DNA of 64,000 nucleotides from Chloroflexota bacterium. Its GTDB lineage: Bacteria; Chloroflexota; Dehalococcoidia; Lucifugimonadales; Lucifugimonadaceae. The translations under genes and the position numbers were made by a program. How positions within the stretch are numbered: the first letter of the stretch is position 1; each line of letters starts with the position of its first letter. Shown in pieces: positions 52,524 to 59,415 of the stretch. The stretch lies in assembly GCA_018650845.1 (NCBI GenBank), contig JABIFF010000003.1, positions 1 to 64,000 of the forward strand. Reading direction: 5' to 3'. A model generated the notes under the pieces. It was not told where the DNA came from, searched no databases, and was given only the letters and a program-made list of their open reading frames with translations.

Positions 52524-53735
52524 CTAGAGCTTGCGCAGGTCTTTTGAGGTGAGGATCAGGCCGAAGTTGAGGATGGCGTATATTGCCGTGCCAATAAGCA
52601 TCATTTCAGCGTTTCCTATGATGGTTCCGATCCAAGCACCCAAGAACCAGCCGAACATCATCGCTTGAAGCGAGAGACTGAACACTGACATAACTCTGCC
52701 AATCATTTTAGGATCGGATTGAGTTTGAAGCAGGGTGATTACTGCAGAAGCCCAGATTGGAATTGCTGCTCCGAGTAGCGCAAGTGAAAGCAGCGATAGT
52801 ATGTAGTTCGTGGATAACGCGAATACAACTGAGGCGATGATGAACATGAACGTGCTGACCAAGATCGCCGGCGACTTACGTTCAGAGTTCTTTTTCAGTG
52901 TTATCCAAAGTGCCGAAACTCCCTGCCCAACAGCCCATGCGGCGAGCATGGTGGCGAATCCGGTTTCTCCAACATCGAATCTGTCACGCGCATAAACAGG
53001 GATGATTGGCACAAGAGTTGCGTTGAAGATGATGGAGAACGCGAGAATCACGAGTCGCAGTAGTACCGGGTTAGATTTTATGTATTTGAGACCGTCTTTT
53101 ATCTCTTGAAGTGCAGAGGTATCTTTCGCTGGTTTTGGCTCTGATTTCGGCAGTCGGAACGAGAAGTACAGACTGACTATGTAGAGAGCTATTAGCGCGA
53201 CGAACGGCGATCCCAAGCCGTAAGCAGCTATCAGGAACCCACCGGTTAGCGGGCCGATTGCGCGAGCCAAACTGCCAGCTAGAGTTCCCATCGAGTTGCC
53301 AGCTTGCAACGATTCTTTCGGCACGTAGTTCATCACGAGCGATTGCATTGCCGGCATTCCCATTGCCAACACAGCGCTCGAAACCACCGACAAAACCACG
53401 ATCTGCCACAGCGTTACTGTGCCAGATACGACTACTACTGCAGTTAGAACTGCTAGCAACAGCAGAATCGCTCTCTCCCAGATCAAAATCACTCGTCCGC
53501 CGAGCCGATCGACCATCACTCCGGCGTATAGGCCGATGATGATTGCGGGAACTACTCGAAGCCCGGTTGCAGCTCCGACCCAGATTTGTGATGCACCGAG
53601 TTCAAGAATTAGCCACGATTGCGCCATGATGCGCAGTTCGACCCCGTTAAGGTTGGCGAAGTTGCTGAGTAAGAGCGCACGGAAAGGTTGGTTCGACAGC
53701 AGTTTTACTGCCGGAATTTGGCGGAAGTTGGTCAA
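52524..53735 (-). CDS. MFS transporter (enterobactin exporter-like MFS_3 type)
   Basis: The 403-residue protein has twelve helices. Features include FRALLLSNFANLNGVELRIMAQSWLILELGASQIWVGAATGLRVVPAIIIGLYAGVMVDRLGGRVILIWERA, QAGNSMGTLAGSLARAIGPLTGGFLIAAYGLGSPFVALI and QTQSDPKMIGRVMSVFSLSLQAMMFGWFLGAWIGT. This is the MFS_3 layout of many bacterial exporters. Substrate unknown. It is the single gene between two repeat-rich gaps. Confidence 0.92.
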   Translation of the reverse strand: MTNFRQIPAVKLLSNQPFRALLLSNFANLNGVELRIMAQSWLILELGASQIWVGAATGLRVVPAIIIGLYAGVMVDRLGGRVILIWERAILLLLAVLTAVVVVSGTVTLWQIVVLSVVSSAVLAMGMPAMQSLVMNYVPKESLQAGNSMGTLAGSLARAIGPLTGGFLIAAYGLGSPFVALIALYIVSLYFSFRLPKSEPKPAKDTSALQEIKDGLKYIKSNPVLLRLVILAFSIIFNATLVPIIPVYARDRFDVGETGFATMLAAWAVGQGVSALWITLKKNSERKSPAILVSTFMFIIASVVFALSTNYILSLLSLALLGAAIPIWASAVITLLQTQSDPKMIGRVMSVFSLSLQAMMFGWFLGAWIGTIIGNAEMMLIGTAIYAILNFGLILTSKDLRKL

Positions 53736-53858: not shown

Positions 53859-53897
53859 TCTGCGAGCCAATAGCGACCCAATGATTTGTGGGGCTGC
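53859..53897 (-). repeat. 39-bp direct repeat, downstream copy of the UGSC gene 3' end
   Basis: Perfect duplicate of 53991-54029. Read on the minus strand it would end the UGSC protein as ARRK-stop, probably the ancestral end. Confidence 0.85.
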
Positions 53898-53981: not shown

Positions 53982-54539
53982 TTAGTCTGCTCTGCGAGCC
54001 AATAGCGACCCAATGATTTGTGGGGCTGCTTCGATTGCTCGTTCTCGGATTTGTTCTGGGGTTAGGCTGCCGATTGGGTGCTGGATTAGCGCGAATGGGT
54101 AGTCGGGAATTCCGCCTAGATTCGCCATTGCCTGTGCGCCCGATTCGAACGGTTCAGTGCAAATTGCGATAGCCGGAACGCCGAGAGCTTCGAGCTTGAG
54201 TGAGTCGTACACACTGGACGACGAGCAACTTCCTCAGTCGCCGTTGGCTAGTAGCGCCACATCGACTTCTTGAGAAAAATCGCTCAGGAAATCTGGCTCG
54301 GCAGGTCGAGAGGCATCGCCCTTGTTTACTCGGTGCGCACTAGCGACTTCGAATCGCTCTGCAAGCACGTCGTAAACAGCATCGAGAAGATTTGCTGCGT
54401 TGAGCTTGTCGTTAGTCAAAAGACCAATTCTTTTGCCGGCTAACGATTCTGGTCGATCAGCCATTCCATCGGTCGCAATCGACTGCGGCGCAGTTGGATC
54501 GAGTACTCGAATCGTGTTTTTGCTCATATCAGTCGCCAT
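53982..54539 (-). CDS. UGSC-family selenoprotein with in-frame TGA
   Basis: The track shows two ORFs (54234-54539 and 53982-54212), but they are one frame interrupted by TGA at 54236-54234. Read-through gives VDVALLANGD-U-GSCSSSSVYDSLKLEALGVPAIAICTEPF, the exact U-G-S-C motif of the UGSC selenoprotein family, with Sec at residue 102 of 185. The rest matches the family: IRVLDPTAPQ at the start, LAGKRIGLLTNDKLNA, DYPFALIQHPIGSLTPEQIRERA near the end. Function is not established; the Sec-x-x-Cys suggests redox chemistry. A 5-bp stem with a 9-base loop (54204-54222) starts 11 bases after the UGA. It lies 43 bases after a conserved-looking partner gene. Confidence 0.9.
53991..54029 (-). repeat. 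39-bp direct repeat, copy in the UGSC gene end
   Basis: TCTGCGAGCCAATAGCGACC...GGGGCTGC, identical to 53859-53897. Here the frame runs on past the repeat to end ARRAD-stop. Confidence 0.85.
54204..54222 (-). promoter_or_regulatory. Possible SECIS hairpin of the UGSC gene
   Basis: GUCGU-CCAGUGUGU-ACGAC on the minus strand; the loop starts 16 bases after the UGA. The stem is short, so this is tentative. Confidence 0.35.
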
Positions 54540-54582: not shown

Positions 54583-55671
54583 TTACTCTTTTGAATCGAT
54601 TATTCGGGTAACAATCTTGGATCGTGAACCAAGTGACCACGGTGGAATCACTGCGCTCCATGCACCACCAGCGCCACCTACTACGATAGGAATTGCCGAT
54701 TCTGGGCTGTCTAGAACGCTGATTAGTTCGTCGCCGTTATCAGGATCGAGCTTTGCGTTATTGTCTTTTTGTGCCCCACTCGGAAGCCCCATAGCGATCC
54801 ACTCTGAAGCAGGTTTTCGAGCGTTTTCGTAGAGGTATTTTCCAACTTGCTCTTTTTGCCATCCGGCTTCGGTGAAGTGAGCTGCGTGTTCAGGACAGAT
54901 GACCAATATGACTTGTTTTACTCCGGGACCCATCGGATAGAGCCGCTGCGCGAACGCATCGAGAATTCCTTCGGGAGTGCTAGCTTCGTGTTCGCCAAAT
55001 TGCGTTCCGCTAAGACCTGAAACGACCGTTACAGCGCTTTCACCGGCTGCGATGCCACGTGTTTCGTGCAGCGGTTCCCACGGGAGTACGGCTTCATTCT
55101 CGGCGACACACCACGTGTACTTTCCGGGGTGGCCTAGCGTTGCTTTATCGAGGCCATCGTTGCTATTCGTACCAACCACGTTTTGAACTATTAGCCTGAC
55201 TGCTCGACCGATGGTGGCGTTGGAACGATGACCGGGACCAAACGCTGAAACACCAGAGTTGATCTCGATTTCTTCAGTGATAGGTCCGTTTACGATCAGC
55301 ATGATCGCCGCGCCCATTGTTGAAACAGTAATGCCGTGAAGGTTGAACTCTGGCTGCATTATCGCTTCTACGGCCGCTACAACAACCGGCATGTATTCCG
55401 GCTTGCACCCTGCCATCACAGCGTTAATCGCAGCCTTCTCAGCAGTGATTACTGCACCTTTGACCGGTTCGATGCCGAGTATGGCGTCGGGGGCTAGCTT
55501 TGCGCCTTCGAGCATTGCAGAAACCGCTTCAGGCGTTGGTGGCACTACGGGTAGTCCGTCGGACCAACCGTTTTCGAAGTAGGTTTCGATGGCTTCAAGT
55601 GCGCCAGGCAGTTCGAGGGAGTCGGAAGTGAGGCGAGTTGAACTCGTCATGCGGGACAGCTGCTTTCTCAA
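54583..55671 (-). CDS. Unknown protein, partner of the UGSC selenoprotein
   Basis: The 362-residue product is of no family I can name. Visible features: ALEAIETYFENGWSDGLPVVPPTPEAVSAML, AAINAVMAGCKPEYMPVVVAAVEAIMQPEFNLHGITVSTMGAAIMLIVNGPI, HRSNATIGRAVRLIVQNVVGTN, LDKATLGHPGKYTWCVAENEAVLPWEPLHETRG and VKQVILVICPEHAAHFTEAGWQKEQVGKYLYE. Gly-rich loops and a soluble alpha/beta pattern suggest an enzyme; three Cys are spread through it. Its place just upstream of the UGSC gene implies a shared reaction. A likely start after the poorly conserved MRKQLSRM is possible. Confidence 0.75.
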   Translation of the reverse strand: MRKQLSRMTSSTRLTSDSLELPGALEAIETYFENGWSDGLPVVPPTPEAVSAMLEGAKLAPDAILGIEPVKGAVITAEKAAINAVMAGCKPEYMPVVVAAVEAIMQPEFNLHGITVSTMGAAIMLIVNGPITEEIEINSGVSAFGPGHRSNATIGRAVRLIVQNVVGTNSNDGLDKATLGHPGKYTWCVAENEAVLPWEPLHETRGIAAGESAVTVVSGLSGTQFGEHEASTPEGILDAFAQRLYPMGPGVKQVILVICPEHAAHFTEAGWQKEQVGKYLYENARKPASEWIAMGLPSGAQKDNNAKLDPDNGDELISVLDSPESAIPIVVGGAGGAWSAVIPPWSLGSRSKIVTRIIDSKE

Positions 55672-55734: not shown

Positions 55735-58158
55735 TTACTTCTTCTTTCCCCCCTTGCCACGCTTCTTTTTAGAAGATGATTCCTCTTCGTCAGAGTCATC
55801 ACTGATTACGGGTTCTTCAGGAGCTGAGTCGGTGACCACTGGCTCGTCTGAACTTGAGTCGTTATTGGACGACTTCTTGTCACGTTTCTTCGAGCTCTTC
55901 TTCTTCTTTGAAGTAGGCTCTTCAGCTACAGGCTCAGTAACGACTGGCTCTACTACTACAGGGGCCACCACTACCGGTTCGTCCACTACAGGAGCATCGA
56001 CAACCGGTGCAGGTGCGTCGTTAGTCGGAGTGACAGGAGCAGGAGGCGCTGGTGGCGTGGTTTCTTCAGAACCATCGTCGCCTTCATCGCCACTATCGTC
56101 ATGGTCGCCTGAACTGTCGTCGCCTGAGTCCTGCTCAGAAGGAGTGTCTTCAACTGCCGGAGCTTCTGGCACATCTTCAACAACAGGCTCTACAGCTTTC
56201 GGTTCTTCAACTACTGGGGGCGCAGTTGGAGTCGAGTTGCTGTTGCTAGTTGAACCAGAGTTGCCAGAGTTGCCGTTATTCGACTTCTCAGATTTGTCGT
56301 CGTCAGAATCATCGGAATCCGACTTGTCAGATTTATTTCCGCTGTTGCCGTTTTCAGACTGATCATCAGATCCGTTATCGTCATTTTCGTCAGCCTGGTC
56401 GTCAGAACTGTCGTCGCCTGAGTCCTGCTCAGAAGGTGTGTCTTCAACTACTGGAGCTTCTGGAACATCTTCTACAACAGGCTCTACAACTATCGGCTCT
56501 TCAACTACAGGTGGTGCAGGTGGAGGCGTGTTGCCATTGCTGTTGCCGTTGCCGTTGCCAGAGTTCGAGTTACCGGACTTGCCGTTGTTCGACTTATCAG
56601 ACTTGTCTTCTTCAGAGTCATCGGAATCCGACTTGTCAGATTCAGGAGCCGAAACTGGCTCGCCGCTCTTCGAATCGTTCTTATCTGATTTCTTGTCGTC
56701 GTCGTCAGACTTAGGAGCAGGCTTGTTGCTCTTAGCTGGCTTCTCGTCAGATTTAGGCGTTTCTTCATCTGAGTCCTGCTCAGAAGGAGAATCTTCGACA
56801 ACAGGCTCTACTGGTGCTGGAGGCGTTGATTCATCGGACGGAGGTGGTGTCGACGAAGACGAGTTATCGCTTCCGCCGTTGCCCTTGCCATTGCCGTTGT
56901 TTCCTGAGTTCGACTTGTCGCCAGACTTAGGATCGCCCTTATCTGAGTTCTTATCGTCGTCAGATTTAGGAGCAGGCTTGTTGCTCTTAGAATCGTTCTT
57001 GCCTGAGTTCTTATCGTCGTCGTCTGATTTAGGAGCAGGCTTGTCGTTCTTTGAATCGTTCTTGCCTGAGTTCTTATCGTCGTCGTCTGAATCCTGGTCA
57101 GATTCTTCGTTCTTAGAATCGTCTTTGGAATTCTTGCCCTTATTGTCGTTTTTCGCACCAGGCTTATTGGCATTCGGACCATGGCCATCGGCAAAGTTAG
57201 TGGCGACTATGATGATTTCATCGTCATCTGAACCATCATCCTGACCATCGTCAGTTGATTCGTCATTGTCGTCATCTGAAGATTTATTGCCGCTGTCTGA
57301 AGATCGGCCACGGGAATTATCCTGAGATTTTCCGTTCTTAGAATCGTCTTCGTCTAAATCTGATTCGTCCACAGCATCAGAATCGTCCTCGTCATCCTGA
57401 TCCTGATCGTCAGATGAATCTTCTTCAGACTCGTTGGAGATGGCCTCAGGCGTGGGTGGTGCATGAGACACGGGTGGAGTGTCAGTGTTGCTGCCAGAGT
57501 TGCTTGAACCCTGTCCTGACGCAAAATCGTCTGACTGAGATGAGTCGTTATCGCCTGAACCAGCGGAGTCATCTGTAGTCGAGCCGGAAGAGAATCCAGA
57601 GCCGAAGCCGCCGGTTGAACCGCCCGACCTGCCTGAATTAGATGCTTCACCTGAGGCTGACGCCAATGCGCTGATTCCATTGGCGGAACCAGTAGATGCT
57701 GTAGCGATCAGATTAGCGATAGAAGATGCAAGACCCTGTTGTTCGTCAGTTTCTGCGCTTCCGATGCTCACACCAGATTTTTCGGTGTTGAGCGTAATTC
57801 GCTGGTCATCCATGTTGGACGCCCGAATAACTTCCGTGATGACGGAAGCCAGATCGGCACCACCGACGCTAAGTTCCGGGCCAGTGCCAAACTTCGAATT
57901 CAGTGCATTTGAGTTCTCTTCGAACGATGCAATGAGCTGAGAGTTGTAGCTAGATCCGGTTTCGGAACGTACTGCGCTGTCACCGGCGATCCGCAATATA
58001 GGAGAGCAGGCGGTGAGAATAGCGAGAAACACGATTGCCAAAGACGCAAGACTGAGCTTTGACAGTTTCGATGTAGGTTGAACAGCAGATTCGAACGACA
58101 TCAGAGTGTTACTGATGGCCGCTCCGCCGTTTATCTGAGTTGTATTACGTATACCCAT
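55735..58158 (-). CDS. Very acidic, repeat-rich lipoprotein
   Basis: The product has 807 residues. An N-terminal helix ending FLAILTACSPIL gives a lipobox. A globular part at about 60-165 follows (SFEENSNALNSKFGTGPELSVGGADLASVITEVIRASN). The remaining 600 residues are low-complexity Ser/Asp/Asn/Lys/Pro. They contain repeated units such as KPAPKSDDDDKNSGKNDSK (four variants), VVEDTPSEQDSGDDSSDDQ and VVEEPIVVEPVVEDVPEAP. The tail is strongly basic (SSKKKRGKGGKKK). It is likely a long surface stalk, possibly ion binding. The large plus-strand ORFs inside (e.g. 56438-57244) are shadows. Confidence 0.82.
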   Translation of the reverse strand: MGIRNTTQINGGAAISNTLMSFESAVQPTSKLSKLSLASLAIVFLAILTACSPILRIAGDSAVRSETGSSYNSQLIASFEENSNALNSKFGTGPELSVGGADLASVITEVIRASNMDDQRITLNTEKSGVSIGSAETDEQQGLASSIANLIATASTGSANGISALASASGEASNSGRSGGSTGGFGSGFSSGSTTDDSAGSGDNDSSQSDDFASGQGSSNSGSNTDTPPVSHAPPTPEAISNESEEDSSDDQDQDDEDDSDAVDESDLDEDDSKNGKSQDNSRGRSSDSGNKSSDDDNDESTDDGQDDGSDDDEIIIVATNFADGHGPNANKPGAKNDNKGKNSKDDSKNEESDQDSDDDDKNSGKNDSKNDKPAPKSDDDDKNSGKNDSKSNKPAPKSDDDKNSDKGDPKSGDKSNSGNNGNGKGNGGSDNSSSSTPPPSDESTPPAPVEPVVEDSPSEQDSDEETPKSDEKPAKSNKPAPKSDDDDKKSDKNDSKSGEPVSAPESDKSDSDDSEEDKSDKSNNGKSGNSNSGNGNGNSNGNTPPPAPPVVEEPIVVEPVVEDVPEAPVVEDTPSEQDSGDDSSDDQADENDDNGSDDQSENGNSGNKSDKSDSDDSDDDKSEKSNNGNSGNSGSTSNSNSTPTAPPVVEEPKAVEPVVEDVPEAPAVEDTPSEQDSGDDSSGDHDDSGDEGDDGSEETTPPAPPAPVTPTNDAPAPVVDAPVVDEPVVVAPVVVEPVVTEPVAEEPTSKKKKSSKKRDKKSSNNDSSSDEPVVTDSAPEEPVISDDSDEEESSSKKKRGKGGKKK

Positions 58159-58637: not shown

Positions 58638-58961
58638 CTAGTCGGCGTGGAAAACTTCTCGCCATTGGATCATGTTTTGATCGGGGTGAGCGCCATCGGG
58701 TAGTTGGAAGAATGGCGACATATCGTCTTGCCACTTCTGGTTTACGTCTTCTTTTGCCATTCCTGCGATTGATGCCTCGTGGGACTCGTCGCATTCAACA
58801 TAGCCAAAGAGCGTGCCGTCTTCTCGGAAGAAGATCGTGTAGTTGCGCCAGCCGGTTCGAACTAAAGCTTCCGACATTTCTGGCCAGATGTCGTCGTGTC
58901 GTTGTTTGTACTCTTCGACCATTTCGGGGTGAATTTTCATCTCGAATCCAACTCGTTGCAT
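58638..58961 (-). CDS. L-rhamnose mutarotase (RhaM/DUF718 family)
   Basis: The 107-residue product shows RhaM family segments: RVGFEMKIHPEMVEEYKQRHDDIWPEM, LVRTGWRNYTIFFREDGTLFGYVEC and NQKWQDDMSPFF. The family has a ferredoxin-like dimeric alpha/beta barrel and interconverts anomers of L-rhamnose, with His21-equivalent catalysis (QRHDDIWPE). A second family member is divergently encoded 100 bases away, and L-rhamnose or L-fucose use seems likely (inference). No other rhamnose genes are in this window. Confidence 0.88.
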   Translation of the reverse strand: MQRVGFEMKIHPEMVEEYKQRHDDIWPEMSEALVRTGWRNYTIFFREDGTLFGYVECDESHEASIAGMAKEDVNQKWQDDMSPFFQLPDGAHPDQNMIQWREVFHAD

Positions 58962-59076
58962 GTCGCTGCTCCTCGTATTTATGAATTTTTAGATGCCGCA
59001 GAGTGTAGGCTATGCGCCCATCTAGCGCAGCCCGCCACGCCCGATAAAGGGTAATTTTCAGTTGGAGAGAGCACGA

Positions 59077-59415
59077 ATGTCGAAGTCGATTGCACAGGTT
59101 TTGGATCTAGTAGACGATCCAAAGATCATCGCCGAGTACGAGGAGTACCACCGTAATGTGTGGCCCGAGGTTCTCGAAGCCCTTAAAGGAATTGGAATTG
59201 AACGAATGGAGATTTTCCGCAGTGGAAATCACCTATTCATGTACTGCACGGTTCCTGACGATTTCGACCCTCGACGTGACTTTCAAAGCTATACGGCTTC
59301 GAAGCGTGCTGAGGAGTGGAATGATCTGATGTCGACGTATCAGCAGAAGGTTCCGCAGGCCGCTGAGGACGACTGGTGGTACCCGATGTCGTTAGCGTTT
59401 GATTCGGAGTGGTAG
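59077..59415 (+). CDS. DUF718/RhaM-like mutarotase family protein
   Basis: ATG 59077, with GGAGAG about 10 bases upstream, gives 112 residues. AQVLDLVDDPKIIAEYEEYHRNVWPEVLEALKGIGIERMEIFRSGNHLFMYCTVP shows the family layout (EYHRNVWPEV equals the catalytic RHDDIWPEM of the divergent gene). The continuation YTASKRAEEWNDLMSTYQQKVP is the typical C-terminal helix. It most resembles L-fucose mutarotase-type members. The two mutarotase genes share an intergenic promoter region. Confidence 0.87.
   Translation: MSKSIAQVLDLVDDPKIIAEYEEYHRNVWPEVLEALKGIGIERMEIFRSGNHLFMYCTVPDDFDPRRDFQSYTASKRAEEWNDLMSTYQQKVPQAAEDDWWYPMSLAFDSEW

Follow-up and report, generated by a model that had tools for sequence, protein, structure and literature searches.

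The 64,000-nucleotide stretch of DNA analysed here (the window) almost certainly carries a genuine selenoprotein gene of the UGSC family, in which sequence comparisons assign an in-frame TGA to selenocysteine (Sec, U). The family itself is already known, and the window gene adds one member to it, in the SAR202 clade. The gene and its immediate surroundings comprise the following features.

54583..55671, minus strand: partner gene 'Unknown_1', 362 amino acids, ending 43 nt upstream of the UGSC start
53982..54539, minus strand: UGSC-family selenoprotein gene, 185 amino acids with U102, from PF24696 and NF041046 matches and translation
54234..54236, minus strand: in-frame TGA assigned to selenocysteine, motif D-U-G-S-C, from its conservation in homologues and Cys in plasmid homologues
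54204..54222, minus strand: predicted bacterial SECIS hairpin GUCGUCCA-GUG-UGUACGAC, from synonymous-site freezing, pair counts and fit to the bSECIS model
52524..53735, minus strand: MFS transporter gene, downstream of UGSC and on the same strand

Read on the minus strand from 54539 to 53982, the frame runs ...VDVALLANGD-U-GSCSSSSVYDSLKL..., in which codon 102 is the only internal TGA and a normal stop closes the frame; it thus contains the UGSC motif with Sec encoded by an in-frame UGA. The protein joined across the TGA matches the Pfam UGSC model (PF24696) over model positions 1–170 of 172 (E = 1.8e-53; 181.6 bits against a cut-off of 25) and passes the NCBIfam model NF041046, 'UGSC family (seleno)protein', with 136.4 bits against a cut-off of 125. 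By these profile scores, the match of the joined frames to the family lies far beyond chance. The initial annotation had proposed two open reading frames (ORFs) joining through TGA into a UGSC selenoprotein motif; the full-length matches to both models confirm this reading. Its coordinates, 53982–54539, were right, the strand that it left unstated is minus, and the alignment to the family that it had suggested as a check finds the UGSC profile matched end to end.

Under translation table 11, the gene splits into ORFs of 101 and 76 amino acids. Standard annotation truncates genes of this type, as had been anticipated: on an Acidovorax plasmid, the annotated CDS of a homologue has the TGA as its end point and carries the product name 'hypothetical protein'. 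At the 3′ end of the window gene, a perfect 39-nt direct repeat (53859–53897 and 53991–54029) places a copy of the last UGSC codons in the non-coding sequence 132 nt further downstream; a small tandem duplication may have left this scar.

The two separate ORFs under table 11 are what would be expected if the TGA were a real stop, left by a pseudogene, a frameshift or a sequencing error and yielding two fragments. This is very improbable. Each of the 56 UGSC genes inspected closely, across many genera, has TGA at the site, and conservation after the TGA is at least equal to that before it, mean identity to 35 relatives being 64% and 50%, respectively. Sec machinery and a conserved SECIS, described below, are also present. 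Across the order, every match listed contains exactly one TGA, in a listing that left out weaker matches. A phylum-wide sample contained two TGA-less full-length matches, both very divergent and carrying Thr and Met at the site (L109, on G323:C21, and L110, on G322:C145). We rejected them as a Cys form within Chloroflexota, given these residues and their appearance as degenerate copies; the replacement of Sec suggests a loss of catalysis. In G323, the TGA-less copy lies ~4 kb from a Sec copy.

Homologues with Cys at the site were found only outside Chloroflexota, on plasmids. Those of Arthrobacter, Roseovarius, Embleya and haloarchaea carry Cys exactly at the Sec position, never Trp, and the Acidovorax plasmid homologue has TGA there. 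This classical alternation of Sec and Cys effectively excludes a recoding of TGA as Trp in the lineage (similar to codes 4 and 25), a reading that the occurrence of an in-frame TGA might invite but that is also contradicted by the restriction to one TGA per gene at one site, by a UCA-anticodon tRNA that is tRNA-Sec, by the fit of SelD U18 to Sec and by the SECIS.

Comparison of homologues places a SECIS hairpin directly downstream of the UGA. It is 19 nt long, starts 11 nt after the UGA and consists of an 8-bp stem closed by the 3-nt loop GUG, which begins with a G located 19 nt from the UGA; in the window copy, the sixth pair is a C/U mismatch. The bSECIS model combines a loop of 3–9 nt, a stem of 4–16 bp, a G within the first two loop positions and a spacing of 16–37 nt (PMC13188914), and the window hairpin fits it with its one stem mismatch. 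Identity at synonymous codons +6 to +10 reaches 98% among 18 close homologues, versus ~43% elsewhere in the gene. The 14 distinct hairpins (from 56 genes) form 102 of 112 pairs, compared with 63.5 ± 5.2 under a codon-preserving null generated by synonymous resampling (maximum 82 in 3000 resamplings). In a separate 11-row alignment, two pairs carried changes in both partners, and pairing held in 94% of cells versus at most 55% with slid partners. The signal was seen only by the comparative, codon-preserving test and not by single-sequence folding, in which the window copy after the TGA reached an energy no better than that of codon-shuffled versions.

The window's genome encodes selA, selB, selD and tRNA-Sec: a SelB frame scored 350 bits against a cut-off of 242, SelA was found at E = 1.7e-128, and SelD, found at E = 2.2e-110, itself carries Sec (U18, motif CAGUAGK). 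The tRNA-Sec, with anticodon UCA, gave hits of equal score on two contigs (C3 and C17), both at contig ends, which may be one gene split by assembly. Within the window, an Rfam scan gave no match and a tRNA gene search found none. The initial annotation had taken the gene as support for Sec use in this organism, and SelA, SelB, SelD, tRNA-Sec(UCA), TGA conservation and SECIS all support that claim. The two situations that it had named as damaging do not apply: the genome is not one devoid of selenocysteine genes, with SelB, SelA, SelD and tRNA-Sec present, and close relatives, rather than having Cys or Trp with no SECIS, keep the TGA, with the SECIS present.

The nearest named relatives are SAR202/Dehalococcoidia genomes, among them that of the cultured Ca. 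Lucifugimonas marina JH1073, in which the locus is syntenic. UGSC is present in 79 of the 147 genomes of the order, and tRNA-Sec exceeds the Rfam cut-off in 136 of 147, an upper figure, since the model also catches some tRNA-Ser at lower scores. In many SAR202 genomes, the tRNA-Sec gene lies ~100 to a few thousand bases from the UGSC gene, as if the two travelled together (for example, G102:C23 80827–81541, G117:C1 858098–858814 and G079:C44 72015–73357). Genomes of one SAR202 family (f41; G094, G138 and others) have 8–9 UGSC matches each, and one genome from another family of the phylum (G282) has 11. These multiple copies indicate a paralogue expansion of the selenoprotein.

The partner gene, Unknown_1, gave no family match in Pfam or NCBIfam. 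Its product is 35% identical to the C-terminal part of a UGSC fusion protein from contig C6 of the window's genome, where the gene has a UGTC motif and a length of 546–581 amino acids depending on the start. Unknown_1 contains conserved Cys residues (C81 and C180 in the numbering used here). A UGSC/Unknown_1 fusion appears in PMC2398784 (Fig. S1A). Owing to the homology with the C-terminal part of the contig C6 fusion, and as far as the description given in that paper allows the two to be equated, the window partner is most likely its 'Unknown_1' domain. The two genes sit side by side at nearly all SAR202 loci and at each of the eight bacterial and archaeal plasmid loci that were inspected; this recurrence indicates that, in both domains, UGSC and Unknown_1 are either fused or paired as a two-gene operon. 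Given their 43-nt spacing and preserved order, we infer that they are cotranscribed; a scan for promoters and terminators returned nothing above chance. An AlphaFold model of Unknown_1 reached a pLDDT of 86.8, and a PDB structure search with this model gave no match at E ≤ 0.001. PDB sequence searches with UGSC and Unknown_1 likewise gave no matches.

Downstream, the MFS transporter gene is kept at the same place in several relatives (L060, L061, L063 and L082). Upstream, an 807-amino-acid Ser/Asp-rich low-complexity protein (55735–58158, minus strand) lies between Unknown_1 and a pair of L-rhamnose mutarotase (rhaM) genes. In the relative L059, rhaM and Unknown_1 are only ~640 nt apart, so this protein could be an insertion restricted to the window's lineage. 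The two rhaM genes (58638–58961, minus strand; 59062–59415, plus strand) face away from each other, and the pair is kept with the UGSC locus in the nearest relatives.

The AlphaFold model of UGSC (pLDDT 89.5, pTM 0.83) consists of alternating strands and helices, with Sec at the N-terminal end of helix 103–118. Its PDB fold matches are weak and generic, of Rossmann/flavodoxin type, with TM values of up to ~0.5 by query length, and none of the 50 top matches listed is a thioredoxin. The fold is therefore predicted to be Rossmann/flavodoxin-like and not a thioredoxin fold. A thioredoxin-like fold had been proposed for UGSC in 2008 (PMC2398784).

Family searches with UGSC yielded PrdB as the sole hint (E = 0.03); the TIGR04483 score stayed at 13.8 bits, below the cut-off of 300, and a Pfam search gave no match of the protein to PF07355. 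SAR202 genomes also carry GrdB/PrdB-type genes (PF07355; loci L083–L097), in which an in-frame TGA, with GTCNRCG-like sequence after it, ends the PF07355 match. Four long GrdB-type loci (L083–L086) each have a nearby ORF of ~410–430 amino acids that is GrdE-like by position and size. Such selenoprotein genes are unexpected in a clade regarded as aerobic. We compared the UGSC alignment by hhalign with 12 of these SAR202 sequences, reading through the TGA, the GrdB alignment being small. The comparison gave a probability of 95.8% and a score of 62.7, with Sec column placed on Sec column; masking both Sec columns left 93.9% and 54.6, and a broader UGSC alignment including Cys forms gave 96.5%. 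Control scores were at most 21.3 for 60 column shuffles, 16.3 for a reversed alignment and 15.6 for the unrelated Unknown_1 alignment. By this profile evidence, UGSC is probably a remote homologue of the Sec domain found in GrdB/PrdB. A limited literature search found no earlier statement of this homology.

Unknown_1 was also considered as a relative of GrdE and rejected: a profile comparison with the GrdE-like ORFs returned a probability of 0.4% and a score within the null. No GrdE/PrdA-type pyruvoyl partner was found beside UGSC. The pyruvoyl half of glycine and proline reductase chemistry is thus unsupported here, because Unknown_1 has neither a detectable relation to GrdE nor a confident PDB fold.

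Taken as a whole, the best explanation, which we consider probable, is that UGSC is a Sec-encoded domain of the GrdB/PrdB type that acts with Unknown_1. The ribosome would read the UGA at 54236–54234 as Sec by means of tRNA-Sec(UCA), SelB and the SECIS hairpin directly downstream. UGSC would then be a stand-alone catalytic domain whose redox site pairs Sec with a Cys three residues on (U-x-x-C), the Sec opening a helix of a Rossmann/flavodoxin-like fold. This site could attack or reduce a small organic substrate held by Unknown_1, and the resulting Se–S bond could be re-reduced by thioredoxin and thioredoxin reductase.

Thioredoxin is the likely electron donor, given the genes of the thioredoxin system next to UGSC on two plasmids: in Roseovarius sp. 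THAF8, the thioredoxin reductase gene trxB (TIGR01292, above cut-off) follows UGSC, and in Arthrobacter sp. ERGS1:01, trxB and trxA (TIGR01068, above cut-off) precede Unknown_1–UGSC. No thioredoxin genes were noted beside the SAR202 copy in the window. Thioredoxin is the reductant of glycine reductase (PMC13188914), whereas a review rules it out for D-proline reductase (PMC10298544); since the donors of these two enzymes differ, that of UGSC is not fixed by homology alone. Whether UGSC and Unknown_1 form a thioredoxin-fed reductase is, in our judgement, evenly balanced. In other organisms, UGSC neighbours include CoA transferases, TRAP transporters, members of the PEP-mutase/isocitrate-lyase family, RraA and phosphosulfolactate synthase, a set that suggests organic-acid catabolism. 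We offer tentatively the further idea that the pair is a so far unrecognised aerobic-world relative of glycine and D-proline reductase, a two-component, thioredoxin-fed Sec enzyme reductively cleaving small organic acids, whose UGSC component some SAR202 lineages have multiplied to as many as nine copies in one genome.

Two other functional readings were weighed. UGSC–Unknown_1 might be a Sec enzyme of organic-acid catabolism that cleaves C–X bonds (C–N, C–S or C–halogen) by glycine/proline reductase chemistry, with Unknown_1 supplying the substrate-binding carbonyl. The alignment of the UGSC Sec with that of GrdB and the catabolic neighbours, including phosphosulfolactate synthase, favour such an enzyme, but Unknown_1 has no sequence relation to the GrdE-like ORFs, and we regard this reading as somewhat unlikely. 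Less likely again is the suggestion of PMC2398784 that UGSC has a thioredoxin-like fold and serves as a thiol-disulfide or peroxide oxidoreductase; Unknown_1 would then be an accessory protein. The U-x-x-C motif would suit it, but the confident UGSC model alternates beta and alpha elements, the top PDB matches are of Rossmann/flavodoxin type, none of the 50 listed being a thioredoxin, and the profile similarity goes to GrdB/PrdB.

UGSC accounts for 8.2% of selenoprotein genes in ocean metagenomes and is among the most abundant there (PMC9402790). The present analysis identifies SAR202, an abundant marine clade that can now be grown in culture, as rich in these proteins. In a limited literature search, no paper naming both SAR202 and selenoproteins was found; by term counts, papers containing both SAR202 and selenocysteine made passing mentions only, and selenium goes unmentioned in the paper on cultured SAR202. 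The tie to the reductive Sec chemistry of GrdB/PrdB provides a first testable idea of UGSC function, and Unknown_1, which is without a Pfam family, is identified as an obligate-looking partner. Further work would best address the GrdB/PrdB link, this partner and the numerous paralogues in SAR202.

With the known UGSC family (PF24696, NF041046; PMC2398784), the window gene shares the full-length match, the U-G-S-C motif, the downstream SECIS and the association with Unknown_1; it differs in residing in a SAR202 (Chloroflexota) genome and in standing as a gene of its own instead of part of a fusion. The motif U-x-x-C-x-x-C, reported for GrdB (PMC13188914), is usual in UGSC and present in many SAR202 paralogues (UGSCSSC), whereas the window copy has Ser in place of the third thiol (UGSCSSSS). 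In relation to the UGSC/Unknown_1 fusion as depicted in PMC2398784, a gene of this kind also exists on contig C6 of the window's genome, whereas in the window the two parts are encoded by adjacent genes and their order is reversed, Unknown_1 preceding UGSC. GrdB/PrdB of glycine, sarcosine, betaine and D-proline reductase (PF07355, TIGR04483) share with UGSC the aligned Sec columns, a hydrophobic strand before Sec, U-x-x-C(-x-x-C), a helix after Sec and an 'E..GIP' motif. In contrast to them, UGSC lacks the large N-terminal part of GrdB, and its partner is unrelated to the GrdE-like ORFs.
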